From: an uncultured bacterium
GTDB taxonomy: Bacteria > Cyanobacteriota > Vampirovibrionia > Gastranaerophilales > Gastranaerophilaceae
DNA length: 64,000 bases
Assembly: GCA_902791985.1 (NCBI GenBank)
Contig: CADAYD010000012.1
Coordinates: forward strand, 1 to 64,000
Reading direction: 5' to 3'
Made by a program: the position numbers and the translations under genes. The notes under the pieces were generated by a model. That model was not told where the DNA came from. It did not search any database and saw nothing but the letters and a program-made list of their open reading frames with translations. How positions within the stretch are numbered: position 1 is the stretch's first letter; each line of letters starts with the position of its first letter. Positions 55,747-59,598 of this stretch are shown one piece after another.

Positions 55747-56658
55747 ATGAATAATACTGATAAACAAAATTTAAAAAAGAAATTTTATGAGCAATGTAAA
55801 AAAAATGTATTGCCAAAAATTTCAGAAATGGAAGCAATACGCCAAAAACTATTAAAATCTCATAATAATGCAAAATATAAAAATATAATTAAAGAAAATT
55901 GTATTAATGAATTGTTATCTTGTTTTGATTTTATTGAACGTGGTACAAGTTCCTTAATTCCTATGTGTGTTAAAAGTCTTATAAATCCTGATTTCGGACA
56001 TATAACAGATGATTCTTTTTTTGGTTGTTATAATACCGTAAATTTTCAGGTAACAGAGGCATATGCACAAATTAAATATAAGAAAGATGTATATGGTTTT
56101 ACAGAACATTTTATCTTTATAAACCTTGTATTCAATAAGAATGCAAAAACAAATGTGCATCTGTGTCCACAGTTTAAGCCAAGTTATAGTAAGAGTTTAT
56201 GGGGTTGTATTATACTTAGTGCAATTATCTGTATATTTGTTTCAAAAGTGGTTTGGCTTGCATATGTTTTTCTTGGAATTTTATTGATACTAATATTAGC
56301 AATGTTATCTAATATATATCATAATAAGGCTCAAGAAATAAATTTAGAAGATACGAATTTCGAGAAAAATTTTTATGTAGAATGTGACAATCCAGTTGAA
56401 GCTAGATATATATTAACCCCTGCCTTTATGGAAAGACTGAATGAACTTAAAACAGTATTTGCGTCTAAAAATATTTGGGTTGAAATAGAGAATAATCAAG
56501 TAACTTTCGCAATACAAACAAATAATGATTTGTATGAAGTAGGTGATTTATATACTCCAGCAACAGACCTTAAAAAATTTGATAAATTTTTTAATGAAAT
56601 AATGGCAATAACTGAAGTAATAGACCACTTTAAACTCAACGAAAAGACCGGATTATAA
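55747..56658 (+). CDS. DUF3137 domain membrane protein
   Basis: The 303-residue protein has a soluble N-terminal part, two adjacent membrane helices (SLWGCIILSAIICIFVSKVV and WLAYVFLGILLILILAML), and a DUF3137-type C-terminal region (FYVECDNPVEARYILTPAFMERLNEL, VTFAIQTNNDLYEVG). The function of the family is unknown. No clear Shine-Dalgarno precedes the ATG. Ends just before the mini-island. Confidence 0.78.
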   Translation: MNNTDKQNLKKKFYEQCKKNVLPKISEMEAIRQKLLKSHNNAKYKNIIKENCINELLSCFDFIERGTSSLIPMCVKSLINPDFGHITDDSFFGCYNTVNFQVTEAYAQIKYKKDVYGFTEHFIFINLVFNKNAKTNVHLCPQFKPSYSKSLWGCIILSAIICIFVSKVVWLAYVFLGILLILILAMLSNIYHNKAQEINLEDTNFEKNFYVECDNPVEARYILTPAFMERLNELKTVFASKNIWVEIENNQVTFAIQTNNDLYEVGDLYTPATDLKKFDKFFNEIMAITEVIDHFKLNEKTGL

Positions 56659-56955: not shown

Positions 56956-57411
56956 TTATATATACCTTTTGCATTTATGAATATATCCATTTATATTAAT
57001 ACCAACCCAATAAGTTTTATTTTGCCCAATAATTATCATAATTACTGGGAATTTAACATTTTTATATCTTCTGATTTTCATTAAAGTTTTTAAATCTGTC
57101 TTTGAAGGTTTAGGATTTATTTCAGAATGAGTATGCCATTCTCCAATATAATTTATTTTCCCGTTGCTGATATTATATTTATTGTTTATTATGAATTGAT
57201 GACCAAATATATTTCTAATAAAATTATATCGTCTATGTATATCAAATATATTTGGTTGTGTGCAATCCAAAATTTTTAATTCGTTTCTTGCAATATATCC
57301 CATTAATGCCCCGCCACTCTCGTTTTGCCCGTTATATTGCTCAAATTTTGACAAAGTTTGTATTACAGAGGTGTCAATATTAATAGTAAATTTATTATAT
57401 GTATATATCAT
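56956..57411 (-). CDS. JAB/MPN (JAMM) metallopeptidase domain protein
   Basis: The 151-residue protein has a complete JAMM zinc site: Glu31 (ESGGALMGY), His93 and His95, Ser103 and Asp106 (EWHTHSEINPKPSKTD). It resembles the single-domain JAB proteins found in integrative elements and CBASS-like loci (Cap3), which remove ubiquitin-like conjugates. No E1/E2-like or cyclase gene is next to it. The start at 57411 is taken at the first Met before the conserved fold. Its head abuts a truncated integrase, suggesting a rearrangement junction near 57.42 kb. Confidence 0.8.
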   Translation of the reverse strand: MIYTYNKFTINIDTSVIQTLSKFEQYNGQNESGGALMGYIARNELKILDCTQPNIFDIHRRYNFIRNIFGHQFIINNKYNISNGKINYIGEWHTHSEINPKPSKTDLKTLMKIRRYKNVKFPVIMIIIGQNKTYWVGININGYIHKCKRYI

Positions 57412-57418
57412 ATTCTTC

Positions 57419-58108
57419 CCAATAAACTCTGAATATAAAGCTAACAGAAAGAACATTAAACCAATACTTTATAGAAGTGCTGCAATTAAGATGTTTAATG
57501 TGGCTATTGATAATGATATTCTGATTAAAAATCCTTGTAGAACTTGGAAGAAGATGGTGGAAGATAATGTAAAACTTGTCTATTGGTCTAAAACTGAAGA
57601 AAAACAATTTTATAAATATTGTGATGAGTGGTTAAAAGATTTAATCACTTTAGCTTTAGCAACAGGATTAAGAAAAAGTAATGTAAGATTGTTTCAGAAG
57701 TCTTGGATTGATTTTGAACAAAGTCTTATAAAGATTCCACGAACACAGAACAAAGGGAGAAAATTCATAGAGCTACCTTTTGGAGAGGATTTAAAACTTA
57801 TGTTTTTACAACATATAAATAATAAGAATGAAAAATATTTATTTATCAATGAACAGAGAAATGCTCCGTACAGTGAAAAAAGAATAGATGAAGCTTTTGC
57901 TGAAATATGTAATAAAGCAAAGATTAAAAATATAGGCTTTCATGGATTAAGACACACAGTAGGTACTAGATTAGGAGAAAAAGGTGTGGATTTAGCAGTC
58001 ATACAAGACATATTAGCGCATACAAGTGTAGCTACTACAAAAAGATATAGACATACTACTCCTGAGCAAATGACTAAAGCTATGCAAGTTCTTAATTCAT
58101 ACAACTAG
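57419..58108 (+). pseudogene. 5'-truncated tyrosine recombinase (integrase)
   Basis: The catalytic domain is intact by motif: Arg in ATGLRKSNVRLF, Lys in RTQNKGRKF, HGLRHT, LAHTS and the nucleophile Tyr in TKRYRHTT. Only the end of the core-binding domain (YRSAAIKMFNVAIDNDILIKNP) remains. The N-terminal part is absent, since further upstream the same frame runs antisense through the JAMM gene. The first internal ATG is at 57491. It points at tRNA-Leu 80 bp away, the usual position of an integrase beside its attachment site. Confidence 0.8.
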
Positions 58109-58189
58109 TATTTTAATCAATGGACATATAATGGACACAGGTAAGAGTTTAAAGGGGTTCAAATTCAGGTCTATCAAGGGAAAACAAAT

Positions 58190-58207
58190 TGTCGACGGGG
58201 GGACTTG
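58190..58207. repeat. att-like site in tRNA-Leu 3' end
   Basis: This 18-bp sequence pairs with the copy at 56732-56749 (one mismatch). Together they bracket the JAMM gene and the integrase remnant. Confidence 0.6.
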
Positions 58208-58270
58208 AACCCCCACAGCTCTCGCCACATGCACCTCAAGCATGCGTGTCTACCATTCCACCACATCGAC
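58190..58270 (-). tRNA. trnL: tRNA-Leu (anticodon GAG)
   Basis: The 81-nt class II tRNA is complete: acceptor GTCGATG with CGTCGAC, a long variable arm (TGGCGAGAGCTGT), T arm GGGGGTTCAAGTCCCCC and anticodon GAG in TTGAGGT. The discriminator is A and CCA is not encoded. Its 3' end is the att-like target. Its 5' end (CCACATCGAC on the plus strand) recurs in the repeats to its right. Confidence 0.95.
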
Positions 58271-58272
58271 AT

Positions 58273-58596
58273 GGTATTTAATTATTTTAAATACTACTAT
58301 GAAATTGTCACTTGTCCAATACCGTCGATGTGCTGGATGTTTTCACTTTGTTCAAACCCTCTTCTCGGACGATACTTAATCGTCCTCGTCGGCAGAGTAC
58401 CACATCGACATGGTATTTAATTATTTTAAATACTACTATGAAATTGTCGGTATTTAATTATTTTAAATACTACTATGAAATTGTCACTTGTCCAATACCG
58501 TCGATGTGCCGGATGTTTTCACTTTGTTCAAACCCTCTTCTCGGACGATACTTAATCGTCCTCGTCGGCAGAGTACCACATCGACATGGTATTTTA
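58273..58596. repeat. tandem X/Y repeat block next to tRNA-Leu
   Basis: Order is X1 (58273-58309), Y1 (58310-58411), X2 (58412-58448), X3 (58449-58485), Y2 (58486-58587), then a broken X. X is 37 bp and its three copies are identical. Y is 102 bp, with one difference (T58334/C58510). Each Y ends with CCACATCGACAT, the first bases of tRNA-Leu plus upstream bases. X contains the likely tRNA promoter region. Within Y, GTCGATGTG and CACATCGAC form a 9-bp closing stem, and GGACGAT-ACTTA-ATCGTCC an inner hairpin. Confidence 0.85.
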
Positions 58597-58646
58597 TTAC
58601 GACTCATTCATTCTACCACAAAAAATTTTTTCATACAAAAAAATTA

Positions 58647-58674: not shown

Positions 58675-58680
58675 ATGGGT

Positions 58681-59598
58681 ATGAAGCGAATTATTCTTGG
58701 TTTGTTATTATTCATAATCTCATTTATGCCCGCTTATTCTCAAAATTTTGAACTGGCACAAATTTTTAGTACTGAAAACGGGGTATTTACCTATCATATC
58801 CCGGATGAGATAGAAGAACCTTCTGCACCTGACTCTCCTCTTAAAGATAAGCCGGAGCAGGTGCAAACAGATATTATAAGTGACGATGTTACTGCGGATA
58901 CTTCCGGTTTAACCCAATATAACCCTGAAGATTATATGTATGCTGATATAGATTATGATATTGACGATATGTATGCGTACGTATTACACGGTTATGCTGA
59001 GTATTTTGATGATGAAGAATCAACTGTATTGTTGAATTTGCCTCAGAATGATTTTTTAGCTTTAAATATTCGCAAACCTGATTTTGTGGAGGAAAAATAT
59101 TTTGGCTATCTTAAATCTTCGCCATCGCTGCTTGATAATTATTATACAAAATATAACGGAACTGAATACAGTATAGCGCCAATTTCCGGATATGCATCTA
59201 AAACTGTCGGAGGATTTAGTGCCGGTACTACTTATTTTCAAGGTATTGACTTTGGAGAGCTTGAACAATCTTCAGGGGTTTTCTCAAAATATCAGTATAA
59301 AAATTTTGCTATAAGCACTTCATATGCTAAGACTGTTAACACGACGAACAATAATTATAATGACACGTTTTATTTAACTCCCGAGCTACGCTTGAACCAG
59401 TACTTGGCGATAAAAAATGTGTTGTCTGCCGATACGGTTAAAAAACGTAAAAAGGCGGAAGTAATCTTATCTGTAAACCCGTTCGGTCAAAAGGATATGG
59501 ATAGACTGCGCTTTGAGTTCGGTGCAAGTGAAACATACGACGAAATGAATAATACCTTAAAAAAACAATTCAAATTTTCTACAATGTATAAGTTTTAA
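58681..59598 (+). CDS. secreted protein, candidate outer-membrane beta-barrel
   Basis: The 305-residue protein has a signal peptide (MKRIILGLLLFIISF, cut near AYS). An acidic, Pro-rich linker follows, then a C-terminal half of alternating strands (TVGGFSAGTTYFQGIDFGE, AISTSYAKTVNTT) ending KFSTMYKF. The terminal Phe is typical of Omp85-inserted barrels. No family assigned. An ATG two codons upstream overlaps the predicted transcription start, so I chose the ATG exactly 6 nt after the -10 box. Confidence 0.65.
   Translation: MKRIILGLLLFIISFMPAYSQNFELAQIFSTENGVFTYHIPDEIEEPSAPDSPLKDKPEQVQTDIISDDVTADTSGLTQYNPEDYMYADIDYDIDDMYAYVLHGYAEYFDDEESTVLLNLPQNDFLALNIRKPDFVEEKYFGYLKSSPSLLDNYYTKYNGTEYSIAPISGYASKTVGGFSAGTTYFQGIDFGELEQSSGVFSKYQYKNFAISTSYAKTVNTTNNNYNDTFYLTPELRLNQYLAIKNVLSADTVKKRKKAEVILSVNPFGQKDMDRLRFEFGASETYDEMNNTLKKQFKFSTMYKF

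Follow-up and report, generated by a model that had tools for sequence, protein, structure and literature searches.

The tyrT repeats (rtT RNA) of Escherichia coli are arranged in tandem downstream of a tRNA gene at a single locus, and each contains the 3′ end of the tRNA. In template-switch mutation, of the quasi-palindrome or microhomology-mediated kind, a fold-back copy is made and synthesis then returns upstream. The bridge or seek RNAs of IS110/IS1111 elements are structured, with stretches that match the target on both strands. Repetitive extragenic palindromic (REP) elements and bacterial interspersed mosaic elements (BIMEs) are, according to three reports, palindromes tagged with GTAG or CGTC that are accompanied by REP-associated tyrosine transposases (RAYTs) (PMC3733652; PMC2817692; PMC8266576). 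We have analyzed a 64,000-nucleotide stretch of DNA from an uncultured bacterium of the Gastranaerophilaceae (contig CADAYD010000012.1), referred to below as the window, in which a block of repeats lies 5′ of the tRNA-Leu(GAG) gene. The larger repeat of the block, Y, belongs to a family of small folded elements, not listed before, that lie near stable-RNA genes. We give about an even chance to the reading that Y is a REP-like, lineage-specific, non-autonomous hairpin repeat that enters stable-RNA genes by strand-switching synthesis, a mechanism that we infer.

Outward from the tRNA on the + strand, the block has the order tRNA-X-Y-X-X-Y. We denote the parts of the tRNA target as L (GTCGATGTGGT), D (GGAAT) and R (GGTAGAC...); primes mark sequence antisense to the target. 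ARAGORN and Rfam place the ends of the tRNA at 58189/58190 to 58270/58271 on the - strand. The features are as follows.

58189..58271, - strand: tRNA-Leu(GAG), the intact target copy (L-D-R); ARAGORN and Rfam RF00005, 55.3 bits
58273..58309, - strand: X1, leader and -10 region separating the proximal Y from the tRNA; direct repeat D2, promoter-like matches
58310-58411: Y1 repeat (102 bp); position deduced from the flanking direct repeats
58324..58409, - strand: Y1 three-way-junction unit, L (copy of tRNA 1-11), core, P3 hairpin, ATCC and L′; covariance model R1, 81.2 bits, E 4e-20, and fold
58324..58338, - strand: Y1 D′L′, ATCCAGCACATCGAC, antisense to tRNA nt 1-15; inverted repeat I1 and duplex energies
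58358..58398, - strand: Y1 core, ACTCTGCCGACGAGGACGATTAAGTATCGTCCGAGAAGAGG; family pattern, apical 15-mer and sequence
58412..58448, - strand: X2; direct repeat D2, 100%
58449..58485, - strand: X3; direct repeat D2, 100%
58486-58587: Y2 repeat (102 bp); position deduced from the flanking direct repeats
58500..58585, - strand: Y2 three-way-junction unit, distal, one mismatch to Y1; model R1, 80.9 bits, E 4.8e-20
58534..58574, - strand: Y2 core; sequence, with an apical 15-mer identical to that of Y1
58575..58599, - strand: outermost leader and copy of the tRNA start, 25 nt, 96%; direct repeat D3

Repeat searching bears out the composition reported in the first-pass annotation, i.e., three identical 37-bp X units (100% in all three) and two Y units of 102 bp that differ by one mismatch. 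It also returned a 151-nt repeat of X, Y and the tRNA start in two copies of 99% identity (58273-58423 and 58449-58599), and the 25-nt D3 repeat of tRNA start plus leader in three copies. The inverted repeat I1 makes the far end of Y complementary to the first 14 nt of the tRNA (14 nt, 93%). Because the Y copies differ by a single mismatch, the block of two Y and three X units arose recently, by tandem duplication of a single unit, in agreement with the recent amplification proposed earlier. An assembly artefact is an unlikely source of the block, since independent metagenome-assembled genomes (MAGs) share the anatomy at the same locus, some with tandem copies.

The minimum free energy fold of 58322-58409 has an energy of -28.6 kcal/mol (z -2.9; 0/200 shuffles as good). 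Both helices of the first-pass annotation are part of it, namely the 9-bp stem that closes the unit (GTCGATGTG/CACATCGAC) and the 7-bp hairpin inside it (GGACGAT/ATCGTCC). The suggested capacity of Y to pair with the tRNA 5′ end is likewise upheld, with calculated energies of -22.7 kcal/mol for L′D′ with the tRNA versus -14.5 kcal/mol for the unit's own stem. The assignment of the tRNA promoter to X holds in part. X contains a -10-like sequence, but only weak -35 sequences (GTGACA-16-TAAAAT), and a further candidate -35 (TTGGAC/TGGACA) lies in the final bases of Y. A separate putative promoter, TTGTAT-17-TAGAAT, is located 5′ of the distal Y.

Y is not merely an amplified tRNA end, as had been supposed; the core of Y is an element dispersed across the whole lineage, at many tRNAs, tmRNA, 5S and intergenic repeats, and the tRNA-like 5′ end within Y is a local copy of the target flanking this core. 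A search for Y elsewhere in the genome gave Y-like copies adjoining other tRNA genes, namely tRNA-Ile(GAT), tRNA-Val(GAC) (two in tandem) and tRNA-Leu(TAG), together with one orphan. It is the core, rather than the tRNA part, that these copies have in common. The core is ~40 nt in length, with the form A-CTCTGCCGA-variable hairpin-GAGAGG. Its base is asymmetric and near-invariant (A-CUCUGCCGA / GAGAGG), the constant feet being A-CTCTGCC and GAGAGG. There are 15 cores in the window's own genome, which include copies beside further tRNA genes and further orphans, and seven exact copies of the apical 15-mer ACGATTAAGTATCGT. With the Y-like units at other tRNA genes, and with compensatory changes in relatives, the block is far beyond chance.

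How widely is the core distributed? The genomes compared are MAGs, and many contigs terminate within these repeats. Of 286 genomes of the order, 103 contain cores with the apical type of Y; such cores are also present in many gut and rumen MAGs of Candidatus Gastranaerophilales / Melainabacteria. Using a relaxed pattern that leaves the apical hairpin open (ACTCTGCCGN{14,36}GAGAGG), cores are found in 165/170 sampled genomes of the window's family, at 1-86 copies each (median 6.5), and in a sister family of the same order; beyond the order, elsewhere in the phylum, the frequency is as low as that of a reversed control. The apical hairpins are of many types, with loops such as TAAGT, TAAAT, TGAGT, CCGGTGA and GAACCGTTGA, and every type is accompanied by a stem that matches. 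Two of the copies linked to tRNAs have this hairpin in inverted orientation (GATACTTAATC), which is a DNA-level event. No Rfam family matched Y or the core at gathering score or at permissive E values up to 10, only the tRNA being found in the window, and at seven other core loci just the neighbouring tmRNA and 5S were matched. No IMG/VR contig carried three core types and there was no phage record; a literature search returned papers on REP elements, and nothing on such elements in Gastranaerophilales/Melainabacteria.

Several related sequences were seen in passing. A variant core, AAGGACTCCG-hairpin-GGAGGGAAGG, occurs in tRNA-Val and tRNA-Pro arrays (loci L123 and L147) and is possibly a sister family. 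A second module of ~110 nt (GCCGAGCAGAGCCACGAGCC...GGCGGTGGCGTTT..GCGAGGC) lies in or near the unit at loci L007, L176, L179 and L180, and at L007 the core is located within it. At loci L170 and L169 a RAYT gene that has a repeat of its own (GTTGGGCA) is apparently inserted in the apical loop of a core, near a tRNA-Phe-like end.

At tRNA genes the unit has the layout leader-L-A-core-GAGAGG-(R or side hairpin)-R′-D′-L′-linker-leader-L-D-R, the final L-D-R being the intact gene. The partial target copy enclosing the core comprises the leader and tRNA nt 1-11, and the sequence antisense to the target consists of R′ or the side hairpin, D′ and L′; an example is the sequence GTCGATGTGGC-A-core-GTTGAC CTTGA GTCAAC-ATCC-GGCACATCGAC at locus L153. 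The parts vary, L′ being missing from some Val and Pro units. The same layout occurs antisense to tRNA-Phe, tRNA-Leu(CAA) and tRNA-Glu(CTC), beside tmRNA and beside 5S rRNA, tmRNA and 5S rRNA being among the stable-RNA targets on the opposite strand. Putative boxA-like sequences are present in 5′ leaders (TTGAAAACT..AATA), and boxA-like TTGAAAACTTAATA or TTGACAATTAAATA lies immediately 5′ of many tRNA genes (e.g., L028 and L100), apparently copied with the units.

The association with tRNA genes is polar. Among cores that have the exact TAAGT loop and are followed by 440 nt or more of sequence, 88/126 (70%) lie within 400 nt of a tRNA on the 3′ side, 73 on the same strand and 15 on the opposite strand, versus 7/164 with a tRNA on the 5′ side; tandem copies were counted singly in these figures, and the cores are not independent events. 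Elsewhere the core can be compared with an empty site. In intergenic repeats with filled and empty paralogs in one genome, A-core-GAGAGG-TA stands in place of the 5-nt D, the overall loss to the host being 5-6 nt. At one site GGAGT is replaced (empty GGTACAC-GGAGT-GCGAG, filled GGTACAC-ACTCTGCC..GAGAGGTA-GCGAG), and at another GAAGT (empty TTTTACG-GAAGT-GACCCC, filled TTTTACG-ACTCTGCC..GAGAGGTA-GACCCC). At locus L264 a tRNA-Ile-like relic is broken by a core without duplication. Genome G088 contains a dispersed structured repeat of ~250 nt (L247, L265, L269-L280) with up to three core insertion sites, some empty and some filled, and this repeat is a good natural record of core insertion.

When aligned, the units fold as a three-way junction comprising P1 (L/L′), P2 (the core) and P3 (the side hairpin), with a joining strand that ends in UCC. 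The alignment contained 20 units, all of the tRNA-Leu(GAG) type and most from the genus. Paired cells amount to 93.8%, versus 31-57% when the partners are slid. Double-sided changes are found at ten pairs, compared with 5.1 in shuffled alignments (0/500), and the covariation score is 0.260 versus 0.116 (0/500). Relatedness inflates covariation tests of this kind, yet the slid-partner control has the same relatedness and fails. The unit therefore has conserved secondary structure with compensatory change, as for a structured cis-regulatory leader RNA. In the window the covariance model R1 matches the two Y units only. Outside it, R1 gives full-length matches (E 8e-10 to 3e-7) to units of Leu(TAA), Ile, Pro and Val and to antisense units of Phe, Glu and Leu(CAA), and matches the orphan L003 at 80.5 bits. 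This orphan (1514-1597, - strand, G000:C8, in the window's own genome) is a full-length unit with a promoter-like leader and no nearby tRNA, and is a candidate stand-alone small RNA. The base of the core is possibly kink-turn-like (CUC-UGCC-GA / GA-GAG), as judged from its sequence. Hammerhead and twister ribozymes, CRISPR-like arrays, attC sites and group II domain V were dropped as candidates on sequence alone.

A tRNA-Leu query was matched in 45/46 genomes of the genus, and the unit is present in most of the best 30 tRNA-Leu loci. The gene upstream of the block in the window (58675-59598) still adjoins the unit in nine relatives. L tracks the tRNA sequence of each species (GTCGATGTGG, GTCGTAGTGG, GTCGATATGG), and UCC in D′ is invariant among the tRNA-Leu(GAG) units; in some species the unit has been lost (L186, L191, L198 and L199). 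At all 21 tRNA-Leu(GAG) loci the pairing of D′L′ is stronger with nt 1-20 of the real tRNA (-14.0 to -23.5 kcal/mol) than with the L of the same unit (-8.7 to -16.6 kcal/mol). This preference is predicted by copying from the gene, and is equally required by an antisense switch.

We favor entry of the core by strand switching because the layout is polar, the core is constant and foreign, 5-6 nt are replaced and the antisense is of the fold-back kind. The strand would switch during DNA synthesis or reverse transcription. After copying the 5′ part of the target and taking in the core, it would turn back on itself to copy the target's complement (D′L′), and would finally re-anneal upstream and recopy the gene. 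At single tRNA genes the survivors would be duplications that leave an intact gene, while at dispensable sites simple replacement would survive; survival only of events with an intact tRNA would thus generate the polar layout. The unit in the window would subsequently have been duplicated in tandem via ordinary slippage or unequal recombination. Insertions antisense to genes, in intergenic repeats and in the tRNA-Ile-like relic argue for a mobile element. That this element has no required role at the tRNA-Leu(GAG) locus is, in our estimation, about evenly balanced. The nature of an element and a host function can be compatible, and the structure may have been retained owing to a need for it, either in the element itself or in the tRNA leader that the element now forms.

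A number of observations weigh against this reading. The syntenic tRNA-Leu(GAG) unit is kept with compensatory changes across several species, which argues for a constraint on the host copy beyond the need of a purely selfish single copy. No insertion event at a tRNA gene was found among near-identical genomes, and searches of Y1-type transposases, RVT_1 and genes neighboring the cores yielded no mobilizing enzyme. The neighboring protein genes have none in common beyond orthologous loci and scattered integrases. A reverse transcriptase was rejected as the mover, the presence of RVT_1 bearing no relation to core copy number (p = 0.97) and no neighboring reverse transcriptase being shared. Y1 transposases correlate weakly with core copies (median 9 versus 5, p = 0.0007); no Y1 gene (PF01797) was detected in the window's own genome (G000), in G029 (41 copies) or in G053 (40 copies), and the Y1 genes examined are flanked by their own, different repeat (GTTGGGCAtAcTTGCCCAAC).

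The weak correlation, the small imperfect hairpin, the many intergenic copies and the insertion inside other hairpin repeats could all be explained by a REP element moved by a RAYT/TnpA-REP (Y1 HUH) transposase. We regard this as distinctly unlikely, since the 5′ foot lacks a GTAG or CGTC tag, several genomes rich in cores lack a detected Y1 gene, and one RAYT gene is apparently inserted into a core instead of being flanked by cores. A functional leader RNA is a tentative possibility that we consider less than probable. The units would be transcribed together with the tRNA that follows them and would switch its expression in cis, D′L′ pairing either with its own L, in the three-way junction that leaves the tRNA free to fold, or with tRNA nt 1-15, blocking folding and 5′ processing. 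The preference of D′L′ for the real tRNA, the synteny and covariation of the unit in the genus, the tracking of the tRNA by L and the invariant UCC speak for such a switch. Yet the preference is automatic if D′L′ is a copy made from the gene, sites resembling promoters separate the tRNA from Y, some species lack the unit, and the identical anatomy is found antisense to tRNAs, by tmRNA and 5S and in intergenic repeats, where the switch cannot work. Both ideas might be combined in a new class of element, with polar strand-switching uptake of a hairpin into stable-RNA genes and tRNA-linked copies that are now cis switches; such a copy would be a three-way-junction RNA with a conserved antisense of the first ~15 nt of the tRNA, able to hold or release the tRNA for maturation, at many tRNA genes of the one bacterial family. 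We think this combined reading doubtful.

Might the block be debris of plain template-switch mutations, i.e., fold-back duplications in palindrome-rich tRNA genes, without any element? L-R-loop-R′-D′-L′ is a classic strand-switching product and many arrays are tandem, but the core derives from no target, is common to all copies including those away from tRNAs, and does not extend beyond one bacterial lineage. As a whole this explanation is very improbable; it is refuted for the core, while template switching is the likely mechanism for the target-derived parts. The remnant of an attachment site is suggested by the tyrosine integrase gene (57260-58108, PF00589) that abuts the tRNA 3′ end, tRNA genes being common attachment sites. 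The repeats, however, lie on the 5′ side and hold tRNA 5′ rather than 3′ sequence, integrases are not general neighbors of the core, and the idea is refuted by relatives that have the unit with different tRNA 3′ flanks. We give it almost no credence.

The integrase gene itself lies on the + strand and encodes the catalytic part of the enzyme. Because it overlaps a Prok-JAB gene on the opposite strand and has no clear N-terminal start, it is probably what is left of an element that had integrated at the 3′ end of the tRNA. The adjacent protein with a Prok-JAB domain (PF14464; 56956-57456, - strand) is possible cargo of an integrated element, and a DUF3137 protein is encoded near the remnant (55747-56658, + strand).

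The core thus occurs almost universally within a large gut-bacterial family, is associated with the genes for tRNA, tmRNA and 5S, and is not represented in Rfam. If it is an element, short DNA lacking a known transposase has been spreading unrecognized; if it is a switch, there is a general layer of tRNA control. Repeats in tRNA leaders of these MAGs, and contig ends inside them, are to be read as copies of the element and not as assembly errors.

Each of the known systems shares some of these properties. Like the IS110/IS1111 bridge or seek RNAs, the unit is RNA-like and structured with target matches on both strands, but its target-like parts are long local copies; no recombinase gene was a common neighbor within 1.2 kb of the cores, a genome-wide search for PF01548/PF02371 not having been made. 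As described in the REP and BIME reports, those elements resemble the core in being short imperfect hairpins, lineage-specific and nested in repeats, of which a genome has tens of copies scattered through its non-coding DNA. The core, which is itself a high-copy non-coding imperfect palindrome, differs from a REP so described in lacking the GTAG or CGTC foot tag and any detected cognate RAYT flanked by the repeat, several high-copy genomes having no detected RAYT; in being tied to tRNA, tmRNA and 5S; in having target-derived sense and antisense flanks; and in replacing 5-6 nt. The tyrT repeats and rtT RNA are similar in that tandem repeats adjoin a tRNA gene and each carries a stretch of one tRNA end, whereas the end copied here is the 5′ one and its copy lies upstream; many tRNA genes are involved, and the inserted hairpin and antisense are a shared feature. 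In template-switch mutation the fold-back and upstream return account for the order L-R-R′-D′-L′-L-D-R, but the present units have a constant, foreign and structured core every time.
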